From the NCBI RefSeq assembly GCF_002159975.1, contig NZ_NFJR01000001.1, positions 496,001 through 560,000 on the forward strand: a DNA stretch of 64,000 bases, given 5' to 3'. Of this stretch, positions 4,280 to 54,300 are shown piece after piece (position 1 is the first letter of the stretch; each line of letters opens with the position of its first letter). The stretch comes from Barnesiella sp. An22 (GTDB lineage Bacteria; Bacteroidota; Bacteroidia; Bacteroidales; Barnesiellaceae). The translations under genes and the position numbers were made by a program. The notes under the pieces are model-generated. The model saw nothing but the letters and a program-made list of their open reading frames with translations. It did no database searches and had not been told where the DNA came from.

Positions 4280-5641
4280 TTATTCTGCAGTTTCGAACAG
4301 CTTCTGGAAATTCTCCATCGATACCTCTTTGTGGTTGAGGGTTACCGATTCCTTGATAGCCGTTTGAATCTTCATCTCGGTAGCCTGGTTGATGAGACGC
4401 GAACGGGTATCCTTGTTCGAGAGCATCTCGTTGCCGTAGCGCTCGAGTACATCGTCGGGCACACCGGTCATGCCGTATTGGGCAAACTGGCTGGCGGCTA
4501 CACGTTTGGCCATAGCCTTCAGGTCGTTGTCGTCGACATGAATATCGAATTGTTTTACGATTTGCTCCTTAATCAGTTGCCACTTCAAGTCGGGTACCAT
4601 GCGCGAATAGTCGTCGTCGATGGTCTCGGCCTTGCGCTCCTTGTCGGTAGCGAGCAACCAGCGTTTGAGGAATGCGTCGGGCAATTCGAAGTCGCCTACG
4701 GCTTTTTCGATGGCAGCACGCGAATCGAGCGAGAAGCGGTAGTCGCTCTCGGGAACCAGCTGGTGGGCAATCATCTCGCGGATTTTGGCCAGGTACTCTT
4801 CCTCGGTCTTCACGGTATCCTTACCGAAGATGCTGTCGAAGAACTCCTGATTCAACTCGGCGGGTTGCAGGTGGGTAATATCTGTCACTGTCATTTCGAA
4901 GTCGGATGTCACATTGGCAGCCTTCTCCTTGTCGGTATTGAGCATCGAAGCCAGTTCGGCTACCGAAGCGTTGCAGCTCTTCGAGGGGTTGAATACCACT
5001 TTGTCGCCCTTCTTCACGCCGGCAAACTTGGCCTTCTCGTCGTCGCTCTTGAAGTAGTTGGGCGAAACGATTGTGCTCTCTACCGTGATGCCGCCTTCGA
5101 GGGGAGTGCCGTCGCTCGAGAGCTCGACCATCGAACCCTTGATGAGGTCTTTCTCGTCGGTCGACTCGTCTACCGAAACCTGTTTGCCGAAGCGGGCACG
5201 GAACGATTCGTCCTGACGTTTTACCATATCGTCGTCGACCGTAATCGTGTAGTAGGGAACCGAAATCGACTTGTCTACCTTCACATTCAGTTCGGGGGCC
5301 AGAGCCACATCAAAACGGAAGGTGAAATCGTCCTGAGCATCCAGGTCGACCGTCATGTCTTCGGCCGTCATGGGCTCGCCCAGAATGTTGAGTTTGTTAT
5401 CGCGGATATAATTGTACAAAGCCTCTGAAACCAAACGGTTGATCTCCTCTACCCGTACCGATTTGCCAAACATCTTCGTGAGGATGCTGAAGGGTACTTT
5501 CCCCTTTCTGAAACCGGGGATATTGGCTTTCTGCCCGTAGGCGCGAAGAGATTTATCAACTTTGTCCTGATAATCGGCTTTCGATATTTCAATCGAAATC
5601 ACAGCGTTCAGGTTGTCGGTGTTTTGATGTGAAACGTTCAT
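4280..5641 (-). CDS. tig: Trigger factor, ribosome-associated chaperone
   Basis: 453 residues. Trigger factor docks at the ribosomal exit tunnel and shields nascent chains. The ribosome-binding signature GFRKGKVP is at about residues 43-50; the N-terminal domain is followed by a divergent FKBP-like middle region (about 150-245) and a helical C-terminal substrate-cradling domain. The middle region is poorly conserved, as is usual in Bacteroidota, so prolyl isomerase activity cannot be assumed. It has a well-matched promoter (5722-5752) and its own terminator (4212-4244). It lies upstream of clpP-clpX, the common gene order for this chaperone/protease group. Confidence 0.96.
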   Translation of the reverse strand: MNVSHQNTDNLNAVISIEISKADYQDKVDKSLRAYGQKANIPGFRKGKVPFSILTKMFGKSVRVEEINRLVSEALYNYIRDNKLNILGEPMTAEDMTVDLDAQDDFTFRFDVALAPELNVKVDKSISVPYYTITVDDDMVKRQDESFRARFGKQVSVDESTDEKDLIKGSMVELSSDGTPLEGGITVESTIVSPNYFKSDDEKAKFAGVKKGDKVVFNPSKSCNASVAELASMLNTDKEKAANVTSDFEMTVTDITHLQPAELNQEFFDSIFGKDTVKTEEEYLAKIREMIAHQLVPESDYRFSLDSRAAIEKAVGDFELPDAFLKRWLLATDKERKAETIDDDYSRMVPDLKWQLIKEQIVKQFDIHVDDNDLKAMAKRVAASQFAQYGMTGVPDDVLERYGNEMLSNKDTRSRLINQATEMKIQTAIKESVTLNHKEVSMENFQKLFETAE

Positions 5642-5721
5642 TCTTATGAATTTTATTAAATTAGACTCTTTACTGTTTTTACTCTCTATTGCCTACAAAA
5701 AGCGTGCAAATTTTGAGAGCG

Positions 5722-5752
5722 CAAAATTAGTGCTTATCTTTCGATAATCAAA
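5722..5752 (-). promoter_or_regulatory. Putative tig promoter (TTTG-N19-TAATTTTG)
   Basis: Minus-strand TTTG (5752-5749), a 19-base spacer and TAATTTTG (5729-5722) are a full consensus match. Transcription would start roughly 75 bases before the tig ATG. A GC-rich imperfect hairpin at 5787-5830, just upstream, probably terminates the preceding gene. Confidence 0.65.
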
Positions 5753-5844
5753 TTATTATTAAATTTTTTCTTTTTTCGGAACCGACAAACGAGGGGCTCC
5801 GAGGGTGCCCCTTCCCCCCTTCCGGTCGGTCGGGGACAGAGGTT

Positions 5845-6312
5845 CTACTTGGTATCGGCCATCAGCTGGTCGAAGAAATCGTCGAGTTCCTTGTCCATCT
5901 TTTCCCAGAAATCGTCGTGCAGATAGATATTCTCGTCGTCGATGGTAATGAGGTCGGCCACCGGCTCCATGTCGGCATTGACCAGCACCACCGAGAAGGG
6001 AGAAATAACATCCAGCGAGTGAATAGCCTGGCTCACCCGCTCATCGGCCAGTACCTTTCTCAAAAAGGCTATCAAGGCTGCATCCAGCTGGTCGCCATCG
6101 TGAGCCGTGCGCCACTCGTCGAGCTCATCGATGGTCGACTGGGCCAGCACGCCGTCACCGTCGTCGAAGACGGTAAAGAGTTGTTCGTCATACTTCACCT
6201 GCACATACATGTCGGTGAGCGACAGGGCCTCTGCACGGGCCTTCTCTACCGCTGCACAAAGGGTATCGCACAGGGTCGAGAAAAGTTTTTCTTCCGAAGC
6301 GTCCATAATCAT
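5845..6312 (-). CDS. Small acidic protein of unknown function
   Basis: I do not recognise this family. The frame is open from 6381, but the first sequence that looks like protein begins at the ATG of 6312 or 6306, in MIMDASEEKLFSTL. The upstream part is low in conserved character and overlaps a promoter region, so I start at 6312 (155 residues). The protein is soluble, with no signal peptide or membrane segment, rich in Asp and Glu, with an acidic C-terminus (WEKMDKELDDFFDQL). It contains about three alpha/beta segments but no motif I can name. Neighbours are tig downstream and the aromatic operon diverging upstream; neither suggests a function. A -7 match (TACCTTTG, complement of 6415-6422) precedes it. 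Confidence 0.7.
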   Translation of the reverse strand: MIMDASEEKLFSTLCDTLCAAVEKARAEALSLTDMYVQVKYDEQLFTVFDDGDGVLAQSTIDELDEWRTAHDGDQLDAALIAFLRKVLADERVSQAIHSLDVISPFSVVLVNADMEPVADLITIDDENIYLHDDFWEKMDKELDDFFDQLMADTK

Positions 6313-6414
6313 TCTATTCGTTAAGTTGCGACAGTCGGCAACAGCCCTCCGAATCGAAGAGAAAGAGAGACTCTCCCCCACCCGATTTGGCCCTAATGCC
6401 TTCTATCTTTCACA

Positions 6415-6422
6415 CAAAGGTA
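6415..6422 (-). promoter_or_regulatory. Putative promoter -7 element for the 5845-6312 gene
   Basis: TACCTTTG on the minus strand matches TAnnTTTG, about 100 bases before the chosen start. I see no -33 element at the expected distance. Confidence 0.35.
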
Positions 6423-6561
6423 GTGAAAAAAGCAAGTATCGGCATCGACTCCATATCAAATTTTTCTTATTTCTTATATATGCCCGCACAATCATCGTGA
6501 CGGCTACGATTCGAAAAGAATAAAAAAAATATCGTTTTATTCAAAAATTTATAACGATTTG

Positions 6562-6592
6562 TTTGGAATCAAAAATGATTTCATTACATTTG
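6562..6592 (+). promoter_or_regulatory. Promoter of the aromatic amino acid operon (TTTG-N19-TACATTTG)
   Basis: TTTG (6562-6565), 19 bases, TACATTTG (6585-6592) is a full consensus match. Transcription would start near 6600, about 20 bases before the leader-peptide ATG at 6620. The stretch 6313-6561 between the divergent genes is AT-rich and otherwise holds nothing I recognise. Confidence 0.7.
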
Positions 6593-6619
6593 CAACATCA
6601 AACTCGCAACAGAGAAACG

Positions 6620-6700
6620 ATGAAGAACTTTGATTTTGCATATTACTTTTACTTTTATTTTTATTTTCGCCAAAATAAAAACGGGGTTTTATGCAATTAA
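6620..6700 (+). CDS. Phe/Tyr-rich leader peptide of the aromatic operon attenuator
   Basis: A 26-codon frame runs from ATG 6620 to TAA 6698-6700. Residues 4-16 read FDFAYYFYFYFYF: six Phe and five Tyr in 13 codons. It sits about 20 bases after a consensus promoter and just before an intrinsic terminator (6734-6767), itself followed by pheA. This is the arrangement of a ribosome-mediated attenuator: stalling at Phe or Tyr codons would decide which downstream hairpin forms. The role is inferred from layout; the peptide probably has no function of its own. The double Phe/Tyr content fits an operon that makes both amino acids. Confidence 0.85.
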   Translation: MKNFDFAYYFYFYFYFRQNKNGVLCN

Positions 6701-6744
6701 GAGAATGTAAAACAGAACAACGACACGTATAGTAAAATCCCGTT
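6680..6744 (+). promoter_or_regulatory. Antiterminator pairing of the aromatic attenuator
   Basis: Leader bases 6680-6690 (AACGGGGTTTT) can pair with 6734-6744 (AAAATCCCGTT), 11 pairs with one G-U. The latter is the 5' arm of the terminator, so the two structures exclude each other. The first strand lies inside the end of the leader frame. A ribosome stalled at the Phe/Tyr codons would leave it free; one that reaches the stop codon would cover it and let the terminator form. Confidence 0.75.
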
Positions 6745-6767
6745 CAACCACCGAACGGGATTTTTTT
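6734..6767 (+). terminator. Attenuator terminator ahead of pheA
   Basis: AAAATCCCGTTC (6734-6745) and GAACGGGATTTT (6753-6764) form a perfect 12-bp stem with a 7-base loop, followed by more T residues. It lies between the leader peptide and pheA, 12 bases before the pheA start, so it must be read through for operon expression. Confidence 0.88.
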
Positions 6768-6778
6768 ATTTTCGACCT

Positions 6779-7624
6779 ATGAAGAAGAGAGTCACCATAC
6801 AAGGCATAGCCGGCTGTTACCACGAAGCCGCCGCCCGCGCCTACTTCGGCGAGGAGGAAATCGAGACCGTCGCTTGTGCCACCTTTGCCGAGATGTTCGA
6901 CCGCATGGCACTCGACCACTCCCTGCTGGGCATCATCGCCATCGAGAATACCATCGCCGGCAGCCTGCTGCAAAACCACGAGTTGCTGCGCAAGAGCAAT
7001 CTGAACATCGTGGGGGAATACAAGTTGCGCATCTCGCACGTACTGGCCGCTCTGCCGGGCGAGACCCTCGACGACATACGCGAGGTAAACTCGCACCCCA
7101 TGGCCCTGATGCAGTGCGGCGAGTTTCTCAAGACCCACCCGCGCATGAAACTCGTCGAAAAGGACGACACGGCGGGCAGCGCCCAGGAGATAGCCCAGCA
7201 CCACCTCACGGGGCATGCCGCCATCTGCGGCCGGCTGGCGGCCCAAATCTACGGTCTGAACATCCTGGCCGAGGGCATCGAGACCAACAAGCGAAACTTC
7301 ACCCGCTTCCTGGTCGTGGCCGACCCGCTTTACAGCGACTGGCTCACCGCCGGCAAGCGCATCAACAAGGCGTCGCTCGTCTTCAGCCTGCCCCACACGC
7401 AAGGCAGCCTGTCGAAGGTGCTCACCATCCTCTCCTTCTACGACATCAACCTGTCGAAAATACAATCCATGCCCATCATCGGGCGAGAGTGGGAATACCG
7501 GTTTTACATCGACCTCACGTTCGACAACTTCACCCGCTACAAACAATCGCTCGACGCCATACGGCCGTTGACCAAGAACTTCAAAATACTCGGAGAATAT
7601 GCAGAATTTGACAAACCCCTTTGA
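6779..7624 (+). CDS. pheA: Prephenate dehydratase
   Basis: 281 residues. It converts prephenate to phenylpyruvate, the penultimate step to phenylalanine. Visible: the substrate-pocket IENTIAGSL segment (about residues 59-67), the conserved Thr-Arg-Phe of NFTRFLVV before residue 185, and a C-terminal ACT domain (about 195-275) containing SLSKVLTILSFYDINLSKIQSMP. In the enterobacterial family the ACT loop reads ESRP; here it is QSMP, so feedback by Phe may differ. There is no chorismate mutase domain; that activity is fused to the DAHP synthase two genes on. It is the first structural gene after the attenuator and overlaps the aminotransferase by 26 bases, implying coupled translation. Confidence 0.96.
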   Translation: MKKRVTIQGIAGCYHEAAARAYFGEEEIETVACATFAEMFDRMALDHSLLGIIAIENTIAGSLLQNHELLRKSNLNIVGEYKLRISHVLAALPGETLDDIREVNSHPMALMQCGEFLKTHPRMKLVEKDDTAGSAQEIAQHHLTGHAAICGRLAAQIYGLNILAEGIETNKRNFTRFLVVADPLYSDWLTAGKRINKASLVFSLPHTQGSLSKVLTILSFYDINLSKIQSMPIIGREWEYRFYIDLTFDNFTRYKQSLDAIRPLTKNFKILGEYAEFDKPL

Positions 7625-8783
7625 CATACGGCCCGCCCACCGGGTAAACCAGGTGAGCGAATACTACTTCTCGCGCAAGCTCAAAGAGATTGCCGGGCTC
7701 AATGCCCAAGGACTCGACATCATCAGCCTGGGCATCGGGGGTCCCGACCGGCCTCCCCACGCCGATACCATCGAGGCGCTCTGCTCCGAGAGCCGGCGCC
7801 CCGACACCCACAGCTACCAGCCCTACGTGGGCATTCCCGCACTGCGGCAGGCCTTTGCCGACTGGTATGCCCGCTGGTATGGCGTAGAGCTCGACCCCCA
7901 GCGCGAAATACAGCCGCTCATCGGTTCGAAAGAGGGCATCCTGCACATCAGCCTTGCCTTCCTCAACCCCGGCGACGGGGTGTTGGTACCCAATCCCGGC
8001 TACCCCACCTACAGCTCGGTGAGCCGGCTGGCCGAGGCCGAAATCTTCACCTACGACCTCGACGAGCAGAACGGGTGGCAACCCGACTTCAATCAGCTCG
8101 AGTCGCTGCCGCTCGACCGCATCAAACTCATGTGGGTCAACTACCCCAACATGCCTACCGGCGCCAACGCCTCGGTCGAGCTGTTTACCCGTCTGGTCGA
8201 GTTTGGCCGGCGTCACGGCATCGTCATCGTCAACGACAACCCCTACAGCTTCATCCTCAACGACCGGCCCCTCAGCCTGCTGTCGATACCCGGCGCCCGC
8301 GAGTGCTGCATCGAGATGAACTCGCTGAGCAAGTCGCACAACATGGCCGGCTGGCGCATCGGCATGCTGGCCTCGAACCCGCAGTTTGTCGAGTGGATAT
8401 TGCGGGTGAAGAGCAACATCGACTCGGGCATGTTCCGCCCCTTGCAGAGCGCGGCCATCAAGGCACTCTCGTGCGGTCCCGAATGGTATGCCGAGGTAAA
8501 CCGGGTCTACCGCTCGCGACGGACCGTTGCCGAGCAAATCATGCAGGCGCTCGACTGCAGCTACGACCCCTCGCAAGTGGGGCTGTTCCTGTGGGGGCGC
8601 ATCCCCGACGAGGCCCGCGACGCCGAATCGCTGGCCGACCGCGTGCTCTACGACGCCCGCGTATTCATCACCCCGGGGTTCATCTTCGGCAGCGGGGGCA
8701 ACCGCTACCTGCGCATCTCGCTCTGCGCCCCCGAAGAGCGAATGAAAGAAGCTTTACAACGTATCGAAAAAATGAAATCCTAA
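7599..8783 (+). CDS. PLP-dependent aminotransferase, probably aromatic amino acid transaminase
   Basis: 394 residues, fold type I class I/II aminotransferase. The Schiff-base lysine lies in SLSKSHNMAGWRIG; a PNMPTGA loop and the NPGYPTY segment are also typical. Family members include LL-diaminopimelate, aspartate and aromatic aminotransferases, which are hard to tell apart by sequence. Position between pheA and the DAHP synthase/chorismate mutase gene, with a 26-base overlap into pheA, argues that it transaminates phenylpyruvate and 4-hydroxyphenylpyruvate, the last step to Phe and Tyr. That substrate assignment is inference from context. Confidence 0.9.
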   Translation: MQNLTNPFDIRPAHRVNQVSEYYFSRKLKEIAGLNAQGLDIISLGIGGPDRPPHADTIEALCSESRRPDTHSYQPYVGIPALRQAFADWYARWYGVELDPQREIQPLIGSKEGILHISLAFLNPGDGVLVPNPGYPTYSSVSRLAEAEIFTYDLDEQNGWQPDFNQLESLPLDRIKLMWVNYPNMPTGANASVELFTRLVEFGRRHGIVIVNDNPYSFILNDRPLSLLSIPGARECCIEMNSLSKSHNMAGWRIGMLASNPQFVEWILRVKSNIDSGMFRPLQSAAIKALSCGPEWYAEVNRVYRSRRTVAEQIMQALDCSYDPSQVGLFLWGRIPDEARDAESLADRVLYDARVFITPGFIFGSGGNRYLRISLCAPEERMKEALQRIEKMKS

Positions 8784-8796
8784 AATACTATTTGTT

Positions 8797-9861
8797 ATGA
8801 ACGACTTACAACCGATTACACTTCCCGGGGTCGACCTCAAGCGTCCCGTCATCATAGCCGGTCCCTGCAGTGCCGAGACCGAAGAACAGGTAATGAACAC
8901 CGCCCGCCAACTGGCCGGGCAAGGCATCAAGATATTCCGCGCCGGGATATGGAAACCCCGCACCAAACCGGGAGGATTCGAAGGCGTGGGCGTAGAGGGC
9001 CTGAACTGGCTCAAACGGGTGAAAGAGGAGACCGGCATGTACACCGCCACCGAGGTGGCCACCGAGCGACACGTGTTCGAAGCCCTCAAGCACGGCATAG
9101 ACATCCTGTGGATAGGAGCCCGCACCACGGCCAACCCCTTTGCCGTACAGGAGATTGCCGACGCCCTGAAGGGGGTCGATATTCCCGTACTCATCAAGAA
9201 CCCCGTGAACCCCGACCTCGAGCTGTGGATTGGCGCCGTCGAGCGCATCTACAACGCCGGCCTGCATCGGCTGGCTGTTATACACCGCGGCTTCAGCAGC
9301 TACGACAAGCACCTCTACCGCAATCTGCCCCAGTGGCACATTCCCATCGAGTTGCGCCGCCGCCTGCCCAACCTGCCCATCTTCTGCGACCCCAGCCACA
9401 TCGGGGGCAAGCGCGAACTGGTGGCCCCGTTGTGCCAGCAGGCCATGGACCTGGGTTTCGACGGACTCATCGTCGAGTCGCACTGCGACCCCGACTGCGC
9501 CTGGAGCGACAAGAACCAGCAGGTGACCCCCGACGCCCTCCACTATATACTGAACATGCTGGTGATTCGCGAGACCACCCAAACCACCGAGAACCTCTCG
9601 GAGCTGCGCAGCCAGATAGACCAGCTCGACAACCAACTGCTCGAACTGCTGGCCAAGCGCATGCGGGTTTCGCGCGAAATCGGCCAATACAAAAAGGAGC
9701 ACAGCATGCCCGTTTTGCAGACCAGCCGCTATGACGAGATTCTGCAAAAGCGCATGGCCGAGGCCGTGGAGCTGGGCATGGGAGCCGACTTCATGAAAGA
9801 GATCATGCAGGCCATTCACGAGGAGTCGGTACACCAGCAAATGGAGATTATCAATAAATAA
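8797..9861 (+). CDS. Bifunctional DAHP synthase / type II (AroQ) chorismate mutase
   Basis: 354 residues. The N-terminal 260 residues form a KDO8P-synthase-like (type I beta) DAHP synthase: IAGPCSAET, the KPRTKPGGFEG phosphoenolpyruvate-binding segment, LWIGARTT, the KNPVNPD strand, and CDPSHIGGKR. Residues about 265-350 are a helical AroQ chorismate mutase (ELRSQIDQLDNQLLELLAKRM). The enzyme therefore covers the entry step of the shikimate pathway and the branch step chorismate to prephenate. In this fusion class the mutase domain can also act as the allosteric sensor for prephenate; whether it does here is unknown. The operon thus runs from chorismate to Phe and Tyr plus the committed entry reaction. 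Confidence 0.95.
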   Translation: MNDLQPITLPGVDLKRPVIIAGPCSAETEEQVMNTARQLAGQGIKIFRAGIWKPRTKPGGFEGVGVEGLNWLKRVKEETGMYTATEVATERHVFEALKHGIDILWIGARTTANPFAVQEIADALKGVDIPVLIKNPVNPDLELWIGAVERIYNAGLHRLAVIHRGFSSYDKHLYRNLPQWHIPIELRRRLPNLPIFCDPSHIGGKRELVAPLCQQAMDLGFDGLIVESHCDPDCAWSDKNQQVTPDALHYILNMLVIRETTQTTENLSELRSQIDQLDNQLLELLAKRMRVSREIGQYKKEHSMPVLQTSRYDEILQKRMAEAVELGMGADFMKEIMQAIHEESVHQQMEIINK

Positions 9862-9908
9862 AAGGAGATTACCACTTAGCAATAAGATTACAAGTTGTCG
9901 CATTGTCT

Positions 9909-10682
9909 ATGAAAATCGTTATTCTCGGAGCCGGCAAAATGGGGTCGTTCTTTGCCGACGTACTCAGCTTCGACCACGAAGTCGCCCTCTACGACGTCGA
10001 CCCGCAACGGCTTCGATTCGCCTTCAACACCCTGCGCATGACCCGCCCCGAAGAGATAGGCGAGTTTGCCCCCGACCTGGTCATCAACGCCGCCACGGTC
10101 AAGTACACCATCGAGGCGTTCGAGTCGGTGCTCCCCTACCTGCCGGCCCGCACCATCCTGTCCGACATCGCCTCGGTCAAGACCGGTCTGCCCGAGTTCT
10201 ACGCCCGGGCGGGACACCCGTTCGTATCGACCCACCCCATGTTCGGCCCCACCTTTGCCAACCTGAGCGACCTGAGCACGCAGCACGTCATCATCATCAC
10301 CGAGGGCGACCACCTGGGCAAAGTCTTTTTCAAGGACATCTACCAGCGGTTGCGGCTCAACATCTTCGAATATTCGTTCCGCGAGCACGACGAGACCATC
10401 GCCTACTCCCTGTCGATACCCTTCACCTCGACCCTGGTATTCGCCTCGATCATGAAGCACCAGGATGCCCCGGGTACCACCTTCAAGAAGCACATGGACA
10501 TTGCCCGCGGCCTGCTCTCGGAAGACGACTACCTGCTCACCGAGATACTCTTCAACCCCAACACCCCGCAGCAGGTGCGGCAGATACAGGAGCAACTCTC
10601 GGTCCTGCTCGACATCGTCGAACAGAAAGATACCGACCGCATGAAAGAGTACCTCACCCGGGTACGGAAAAACATCGAGTGA
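9909..10682 (+). CDS. tyrA: Prephenate dehydrogenase
   Basis: 257 residues from the ATG at 9909; a TTG two codons earlier is also possible but less likely. It oxidises prephenate to 4-hydroxyphenylpyruvate with NAD(P)+. The Rossmann motif GAGKMGSFFADVL opens the protein, an Asp at the end of beta-2 (LYDVDP) suggests NAD preference, and the conserved STHPMFGP active-site segment lies near residue 110, followed by the helical dimerisation domain. It lacks fused chorismate mutase or ACT domains, so feedback must act elsewhere. Last gene of the operon; a terminator follows at 10722. Confidence 0.93.
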   Translation: MKIVILGAGKMGSFFADVLSFDHEVALYDVDPQRLRFAFNTLRMTRPEEIGEFAPDLVINAATVKYTIEAFESVLPYLPARTILSDIASVKTGLPEFYARAGHPFVSTHPMFGPTFANLSDLSTQHVIIITEGDHLGKVFFKDIYQRLRLNIFEYSFREHDETIAYSLSIPFTSTLVFASIMKHQDAPGTTFKKHMDIARGLLSEDDYLLTEILFNPNTPQQVRQIQEQLSVLLDIVEQKDTDRMKEYLTRVRKNIE

Positions 10683-10721
10683 AGACTCCCGTCGCCGCCA
10701 CACCCGGCAACACCCCCATCG

Positions 10722-10766
10722 AGATAGCGTGCCACCCTCCCCGGCGGTACGCTATCTTTTGTTTTT
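10722..10766 (+). terminator. Terminator of the aromatic operon
   Basis: AGATAGCGT (10722-10730) pairs with ACGCTATCT (10749-10757), with further inner pairing, and is followed by a T-rich run. Confidence 0.85.
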
Positions 10767-10890
10767 CACCCTTTCGACGCCCGCTTGAGAAAAGTCATCA
10801 ATCGATTGATTATCTTATATTTATAAAATATCATCTTTTATTTACTCCGCGATTTTGGTATAATATTTTCTTTTCTTGCAAAAGAATATC

Positions 10891-10898
10891 TATATTTG
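10891..10898 (+). promoter_or_regulatory. Putative promoter -7 element (TATATTTG) for the 10953-15891 gene group
   Basis: TATATTTG matches TAnnTTTG 55 bases before the small membrane-protein gene. The -33 position is AT-rich without a clear TTTG. The rest of the 10767-10952 gap is AT-rich and shows nothing else. Confidence 0.45.
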
Positions 10899-10952
10899 TA
10901 GGTTGACTCAGGAGGTCGATACCCATACACTGAAAAAACAGGATTTTTTGAT

Positions 10953-11132
10953 ATGAGAAAATATAATGTGTTCCGCATTTCGTGTATCGCACTGCTATGG
11001 CTTTTTTGTGCCGTGACATTGATTTGGGCGAAAGGTATTGATGGGCAAGTGCTGTTTGCCATCATAGCCTCGGGAATCATCGTATTCGTGCCTCTCTACA
11101 AACAATGGAAACGAGAGAGCAACAACCAATGA
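10953..11132 (+). CDS. 59-residue predicted two-helix membrane protein
   Basis: ATG 10953 to TGA 11130-11132, 59 codons. The product starts MRKYNVFRI, has two hydrophobic stretches (about residues 9-26 and 32-48) separated by AKGIDG, and ends in a basic/polar tail (KQWKRESNNQ). Both helices and a positively charged start fit a small inner-membrane protein. It has a promoter-like element upstream and is followed after 27 bases by dxs, so it is probably the first gene of the dxs-trkA-trkH unit. I do not recognise a family. Similar small proteins are often missed by automatic annotation. Confidence 0.7.
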   Translation: MRKYNVFRISCIALLWLFCAVTLIWAKGIDGQVLFAIIASGIIVFVPLYKQWKRESNNQ

Positions 11133-50432: not shown

Positions 50433-50509
50433 GGTGCGGTAGTTCAGCTGGTTAGAATACATGCCTGTCACGCATGGGGTCGCGGGTTCGAGTCCCGTCC
50501 GCACCGCCA
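50433..50509 (+). tRNA. tRNA-Asp (anticodon GTC)
   Basis: The acceptor stem GGTGCGG/CCGCACC is perfect, the anticodon stem CATGC/GCATG encloses loop CTGTCAC with GTC, the T-loop is TTCGAGT, and the CCA end is encoded. All arms pair normally. Confidence 0.97.
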
Positions 50510-50546: not shown

Positions 50547-50624
50547 GGTGCCTGTAGCTCAGTTGGTTAGAGCATCGGATTGTGGTTCCGAGGGTCGTGG
50601 GTTCGAGTCCCATCTAGCACCCCA
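50547..50624 (+). tRNA. tRNA-His (anticodon GTG), acceptor stem with two mismatches
   Basis: The anticodon stem TCGGA/TCCGA encloses TTGTGGT with GTG; the extra G at -1, discriminator C73 and encoded CCA are the tRNA-His identity elements. D and T arms pair normally. In the acceptor stem GTGCCTG faces CTAGCAC, so positions 5-68 (C-A) and 6-67 (T-T) do not pair. The rest of the molecule looks functional. Confidence 0.93.
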
Positions 50625-53736: not shown

Positions 53737-54006
53737 TCTACTTTTGGATAAAAATCTATTATTTAACAGGTTATTGAAAATTTGCAAAACAAGGTCCCGG
53801 GCCGGAGAAGAGACGGCAAGCCCGGCCGTTGCCATATTGTCAAGACGGCAACGCGTCGTGCCTGCCTGTTCCCGGGCAGATGCCCCAACAGGTTTACACA
53901 GCACCCCGACACGGGTTATGAATGGCTCGAAAAGCCTGAAAAAAGTATATAGCATTTACGTCGTACATTTAACCGTCCTGTCCACGGGCTCGATTAAAAA
54001 CAAAAA
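53737..54006 (-). promoter_or_regulatory. Long leader between riboswitch aptamer and first lipoprotein gene
   Basis: About 270 bases of untranslated leader. On the minus strand it contains a GTTGCC/GGCAAC hairpin and a GGCCGG/CCGGCC hairpin close to the gene. The expression platform probably lies here or in the T-run next to the aptamer. No convincing small frame is present. Confidence 0.4.
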
Positions 54007-54176
54007 CTGACGGCAGGTCTTCTGACTGACTCCCCACTCGAGGCCTTCCCGATATTGCAATCAGTGGCGTATAGAATTCGAGCGGTTGGCGGAGCTTCAC
54101 AGCAGCGGGACTGTCCGGGATTTTCACCCGATTCCCTTTTAATCCTCGAGGCCCGGCGGACCTTTTGGAACCAATC
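54007..54176 (-). ncRNA. Cobalamin riboswitch
   Basis: Reading the minus strand from 54176: GGGAATCGGGTGAAAATCCC, then ACAGTCCCGCTGCTGTGA, CGCCACTG, GGGAAGG and the B12-box-like GTCAGAAGACCTGCC (54026-54012). These are the conserved blocks, in order and at normal spacing, of the AdoCbl-type aptamer. A TTTTTGTTTTT run follows the aptamer at once (minus strand, about 54005-53995). It lies upstream of the two beta-propeller lipoproteins, with a 260-base stretch between aptamer and first start codon. Confidence 0.95.
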
Positions 54177-54181
54177 GGCTG

Positions 54182-54189
54182 CAAAATTA
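54182..54189 (-). promoter_or_regulatory. Putative promoter -7 element (TAATTTTG) of the riboswitch transcript
   Basis: Minus-strand TAATTTTG matches TAnnTTTG, and transcription would start near 54175, exactly at the first conserved part of the aptamer. No clear -33 element. Confidence 0.5.
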
Positions 54190-54300
54190 GTATTTTTTTC
54201 TGGAGAAAGATAACTTTTTGCTTCCTACTTCAAACAGATTGTATATGGTGCAGCTTATAGTCTTTATCCTCAGCGGTCTTGACAACACACTCCCCCCCAC

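Follow-up and report, generated by a model that had tools for sequence, protein, structure and literature searches.

In Barnesiella sp. An22, transcription of the pheA operon is very probably governed by ribosome-mediated attenuation in response to the charging of tRNA-Phe and tRNA-Tyr. In the window, which is the whole 64,000-nucleotide stretch of DNA analysed here, a promoter, a leader open reading frame (ORF), an antiterminator and an intrinsic terminator lie in this order before pheA, and pheA and the genes for an aminotransferase, DAHP synthase–chorismate mutase (DAHPS/CM) and TyrA are almost contiguous 3' of the leader region (Table 1). The pheA protein of the window is 85–93% identical to those of eight genomes of the same genus. 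The attenuator interpretation was put forward in a preliminary description of this DNA and is supported by the present analysis. Direct reading of the sequence confirms the order of elements given there, the leader of 26 codons with 11 Phe or Tyr codons in a stretch of 13, the antiterminator of 11 bp (one of the pairs is G–U, and the pairing can extend to 13) and the perfect 12-bp terminator, which is followed by a U-rich tract. A third alternative stem, stem 1:2, was absent from the preliminary description and completes the classical design of 1:2, 2:3 and 3:4 pairings. The locus has an ORF rich in end-product codons, an intrinsic terminator, a competing antiterminator and a 1:2 stem, as attenuators of the trp/his/phe type do, the 1:2 stem being recognised by its predicted fold and by a swap test and being weak on an alignment.

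Table 1. Features of the pheA 5' region and of the regulated operon (positions in the window).
Feature	Position	Strand	Details
Bacteroidetes-type promoter	6562–6592	+	-33 TTTG 6562–6565; 19-nt spacer; -7 TACATTTG 6585–6592; perfect -33/-7 pair
Leader ORF	6620–6700	+	ATG 6620; stop 6698–6700; 26 codons; MKNFDFAYYFYFYFYFRQNKNGVLCN; orthologous leaders in relatives
Control codons 4–16	6629–6667	+	6 Phe and 5 Tyr (11/13 codons)
Stem 1:2 (protector)	6636–6696	+	Predicted fold; 6636–6642/6690–6696, 6645–6649/6683–6687, 6653–6661/6672–6680
Antiterminator 5' arm (segment 2)	6680–6690	+	Within leader ORF; begins 12 nt past last control codon (strict pairing)
Segment 3, shared arm	6734–6745	+	Pairs with 6680–6690 (antiterminator) or 6753–6764 (terminator)
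Segment 4 and U-rich tail	6753–6771	+	Intrinsic terminator 3' arm; stem part 6753–6764
pheA, prephenate dehydratase	6779–7624	+	PF00800, 4e-54; first gene of regulated operon
Class I/II aminotransferase	7599–8783	+	PF00155, 4.8e-57; overlaps 3' end of pheA
DAHPS/CM fusion	8797–9861	+	PF00793 and PF01817
tyrA, prephenate dehydrogenase	9903–10682	+	PF02153, 1.7e-8; best NCBIfam PRK08655

In the proposed mechanism, RNA polymerase would start near position 6600, the position of the promoter placing the expected start at about 6597–6601, and a ribosome would translate the leader. When either Phe-tRNA or Tyr-tRNA runs short, the ribosome would stall on codons 4–16 and disrupt stem 1:2, leaving segment 2 free to pair with segment 3 (6734–6744), and with the terminator blocked in this way the pheA–aminotransferase–DAHPS/CM–tyrA operon would be transcribed; a shortage of either amino acid is expected to induce it. 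When both tRNAs are plentiful, the ribosome would reach the stop codon at 6698 and cover segment 2, segment 3 would pair with segment 4, and transcription would end at about 6765–6771. With no ribosome on the RNA, stem 1:2 would form first.

Of 115 relatives, 96 have the -7 box TANNTTTG 5' of the leader, where 10 are expected, and 43 have a complete strict promoter (0.45 expected). A first scan for sigma-70 promoters was discarded as uninformative here because the phylum uses another promoter consensus. The terminator has a stability of -15.7 kcal/mol, which none of 2000 dinucleotide shuffles reached (shuffle mean, -5.0), and the antiterminator pairing one of -16.5 kcal/mol, reached by 5 of 2000 shuffles. 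In a simple scan, the 6734–6764 stem is the sole terminator candidate on the plus strand within 5600–10995. The stem ends 14 nt before the pheA ATG at 6779, which corrects the 12 bases of the preliminary description. With this short spacing the hairpin could also affect initiation, as would be needed if the leader and its hairpins acted at the level of translation by hiding or exposing the pheA start, with transcription not being ended. However, the 3:4 pairing is a strong stem resembling an intrinsic terminator, with a U tract and with the start codon outside it, and among relatives the terminator lies anywhere from about 12 nt to more than 120 nt from pheA, so that control at the level of translation is very improbable.

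The choice between the two pairings was modelled with base pairing forbidden under the ribosome footprint and RNA made up to 6748, as equilibrium snapshots. In a scan of ribosome positions in the window, the probability of the antiterminator is 0.92–0.97 with the A site at codons 3–16; it falls to 0.47 at codon 17 and is 0 at all positions from codon 18 to the stop codon. The modelled switch point is the last Phe codon (codon 16), and footprints of 11–17 nt shift it by about one codon, around codons 16–17. In snapshots without a ribosome, stem 1:2 dominates until segment 3 has been synthesised; the predicted core of this stem pairs GCAUA of codons 7–8 with UAUGC past the arm and is accompanied by inner stems. 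At equilibrium, the terminator is favoured in the full-length RNA at every ribosome position, and the antiterminator is favoured in RNA made to 6744–6756 even without a ribosome, so that the predicted outcome rests on the order and timing of folding. Snapshots taken before the terminator 3' arm exists were therefore used instead of full-length folding, in which the terminator always wins. Among 127 leader–terminator units, the predicted preference for the antiterminator is higher with a stalled ribosome than with one at the stop codon in 100 and reversed in 8; for 27 of the 127, the model gives no clear switch in the expected direction. These units were collected after a first terminator finder, which demanded near-perfect stems and missed many relatives, had been replaced. 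In most of them the antiterminator arm starts 6–13 nt past the last control codon (median 10), and the stop codon lies mostly 6–9 or 30–33 nt past that codon. Since the footprint of a bacterial ribosome extends about 12 nt past the codon that it reads (PMC4833913), a ribosome stalled on the control codons would leave the arm just free, and one at either class of stop codon would cover it.

The preliminary description proposed a comparison of pheA upstream regions in related genomes for conserved Phe/Tyr frames and covarying stems, and the homologues have both. A Phe/Tyr-rich leader is detected at 156 of 170 Bacteroidales pheA loci, each with at least 200 nt of upstream sequence and with some genomes counted twice because two collections overlap; no such leader is detected at the other 14. 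About 35 of 50 pheA loci drawn from the whole class Bacteroidia have the leader; in one or more lineages whose pheA lacks it, the leader heads the longer operon instead, before DAHP synthase. In a set of 79 non-redundant leaders, Phe and Tyr make up 91% of the last six control codons in frame compared with 35% and 26% in the other frames, part of this excess arising by construction since the leaders were picked for Phe/Tyr density, and third-position differences among the 79 leaders are mainly C/T. In Barnesiella, near-identical leader RNA is read to a tail of ...RQNKNGVLCN in some species and of ...GPK or ...EPK in others, each followed by the stop, the RNA being conserved and the peptide tail not. 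In some metagenome-assembled genomes, the translated pheA match contains an in-frame TAG, or both TAG and TAA (L291, L292 and L299). In G600, one of these genomes, the leader was not detected at the pheA locus (L318).

The segments also match each other within loci. When terminators are permuted among 86 non-redundant units, the energy of the 2:3 pairing rises from -18.1 kcal/mol with the unit's own terminator to -12.6 kcal/mol, and in the swap test of stem 1:2 it rises from -12.1 to -8.3 kcal/mol, none of 2000 permutations being as good in either case; sequence relatedness inflates the permutation tests and also the shuffle tests, and so reliance is placed on the combined evidence. On a MAFFT alignment of 28 sequences, covariation of the 2:3 and 3:4 pairings exceeds that of shuffles and slid controls. 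Covariation of stem 1:2 is weak on the MAFFT alignment, partly because the 5' part of several leaders is misplaced there, and the swap test is better evidence for this stem than the alignment. Competition of antiterminator and terminator for one arm, as claimed in the preliminary description, is thus backed by predicted pairing, by the ribosome scan and by covariation. The N-terminal half of the leader is similar among relatives, as it would be if the frame encoded a working small protein and the hairpin were an ordinary leaky terminator with no ribosome-controlled switch. However, the C-terminus is not conserved as a peptide, as the Barnesiella tails illustrate, the position of the arm relative to the control codons is almost constant while that of the stop codon shifts, the segments of one locus pair with each other and not with those of other loci, and the codon content of the leader tracks the downstream genes, as described below. 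A small protein beside a leaky terminator therefore has very little chance of being the right explanation.

For the comparison of leader codons with operon content, operons were classed by profile searches as linked (pheA with tyrA and/or DAHPS) or stand-alone (pheA alone or with unrelated genes). The control run contains Tyr in all 136 linked operons, with more than one Tyr codon in 135 of them, and among the 7 stand-alone pheA genes it has no Tyr codon in 5 and one in 2. At most one Tyr codon is therefore found in 7/7 stand-alone and 1/136 linked operons (Fisher 4e-11, ancestry ignored), and the Tyr fraction differs as well (Mann–Whitney 4e-6, ancestry ignored), the stand-alone loci coming by genome labels from four families and so representing a small real sample of independent events. 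At two loci (L365 and L388), DAHPS and tyrA follow pheA in the same orientation beyond a gap of about 490–580 nt; both loci were moved from stand-alone to linked after the result had been seen, and the Fisher value is 1.4e-9 without the move. At L271, L366 and L369, a Phe-only or nearly Phe-only pheA leader occurs and pheA is followed by ilvD-like and ilvB-like genes, with a small ilvH-like gene in addition, rather than by aromatic genes.

A covariance model built from pheA loci only finds further leaders before the aminotransferase, DAHPS or tyrA gene where these head their own unit. In three split lineages the missing genes lie elsewhere in the genome, each unit with its own Tyr-containing leader, namely MIKNISVFAYFYYYFYFSKK before aminotransferase–DAHPS–tyrA in G036 and its relative G763, MNNTFGYYAFYYYFFYNN before tyrA–DAHPS in G026 and MAPVHTYYAWSFFFFYFQNKRGHAV before tyrA in G046. 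The codon–operon correspondence and the leaders of the split units, both read from sequence, support the view that the Phe and Tyr codons would act as sensors and that both inputs would matter in the operon of the window. The split-operon comparison is a natural experiment and suggests that selection fits the leader codons to the genes they control. Several other matches of the covariance model were dismissed as ordinary terminators without a Phe/Tyr leader (L263–L266, L268, L311 and L312), as was a second match (G000 C12, E 0.006) from the same genome as the window, which looks like an ordinary terminator and has no such leader; no leader was found at L253. A further alternative is a direct ligand or protein switch, with Phe, Tyr or some other molecule bound by the leader RNA and the Phe/Tyr codons being a by-product of a U-rich stem. 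It draws on the ability of the U-rich run to pair with an A-rich stretch (6653–6661 with 6672–6680) and can practically be dismissed, because the Phe/Tyr signal is frame-specific and its third-position changes are mainly synonymous, the locus matches neither an Rfam riboswitch nor a T-box, and Tyr codons vanish from the leader once tyrA is no longer in the operon, a loss that a U-rich stem would not demand.

No Rfam family fits the Phe/Tyr leader element: Phe_leader (RF01859) scores 17.2 bits against a gathering threshold of 55, and Thr_leader is a weak match of 25.5 bits, below its cut-off of 55. No T-box or riboswitch is found near the locus at gathering threshold, the matches in the window being limited to a distant cobalamin riboswitch (53995–54190, minus strand, 95.6 bits) and two tRNA genes (50433–50506 and 50548–50621). 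Like enterobacterial pheL (RF01859), the element precedes a prephenate dehydratase gene and consists of a short Phe-rich leader ORF with an antiterminator and a terminator that exclude each other. Unlike pheL, it interleaves Phe and Tyr codons, precedes an operon that makes both amino acids and belongs to another lineage. Attenuators with leaders for several amino acids are known from thr (Thr/Ile) and ilvGMEDA (Ile/Val/Leu), which likewise sense more than one end product with one leader, but for other amino acids and in another lineage. In the same phylum, the transcriptome of Flavobacterium psychrophilum has structured 5' elements before the same genes, pheA and hisG, with 'strong clues' for leader-peptide attenuation, but the work concerns flavobacteria only, and its main text describes neither a leader sequence nor codon logic nor alternative structures (PMC9723704). 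A map of B. thetaiotaomicron mentions short ORFs reminiscent of leader peptides, a Phe/Tyr leader not appearing in its text (PMC7366714), and a survey of 2010 knew of no case outside Proteobacteria, Actinobacteria and its own one in Firmicutes (PMC2965389). The proposed mechanism, which is well supported, is the classical one of trp, his and phe attenuation; the family is absent from Rfam, and the flavobacterial element, a hint of it, is its precedent. A comparative study of 2010 by Lopatovskaya and colleagues, cited in PMC4833913, may include Bacteroidetes. The codon–operon correspondence and the tandem units may be the parts that a specialist does not expect.

In roughly twenty genomes from many families, two Phe/Tyr attenuators follow one another ahead of pheA, mostly with a separate antiterminator and terminator for each (L040, L073, L087, L280, L317, L319, L334, L355, L362, L365, L377, L381, L386 and L389, and further L024, L150, L151 and L156). 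In a few exceptions one terminator is weak or was not found (L315 and L338). Tandem attenuators are also described for Salmonella mgtCBR, where a single leader contains two short ORFs together with attenuation structures (PMC3641672). That operon serves Mg2+ transport and virulence and not amino-acid biosynthesis, and in the Bacteroidales tandems both leaders are Phe/Tyr-rich.

On balance, leader attenuation is more likely than not to be the class-wide default for the amino-acid operons of Bacteroidia (Phe/Tyr, His, Ile/Leu/Val and Trp), with leaders re-coded when operons split, to Phe-only before a lone pheA and to Tyr-containing before tyrA units, and with repeated duplication giving Phe/Tyr attenuators in series, by which the dynamic range would be multiplied. 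Attenuation requires coupling of ribosome and polymerase, and a class-wide default, if true, would imply functional transcription–translation coupling throughout the phylum. Bacteroidia are not known to rely on Shine–Dalgarno sites. The leader offers a simple reporter for ribosome–RNA polymerase coupling in Bacteroidota, and the family suggests how Bacteroidia may time the synthesis of aromatic amino acids. A conserved family of this kind in a dominant gut lineage would also explain many 'hypothetical' genes of 15–30 amino acids to annotators.

Two other leaders in the genome of the window, the His leader MLFLSLHHHHHLHIPRRGVR before hisG (G000 C34, L195) and the Ile/Leu/Val leader MILHVISLSIIISELIVVSR before ilvD (G000 C45, L183), both come with a terminator and with a strong antiterminator that competes with it. 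A trpE gene is not detectable in the Barnesiella genomes, and Trp leaders are present in other Bacteroidales. In one of these genomes (L176), tandem Trp-rich leaders, MNTNRLNNYWWWQFTYSF... and MNNSNLHIWWWHNSGIKP, are found before trpE.
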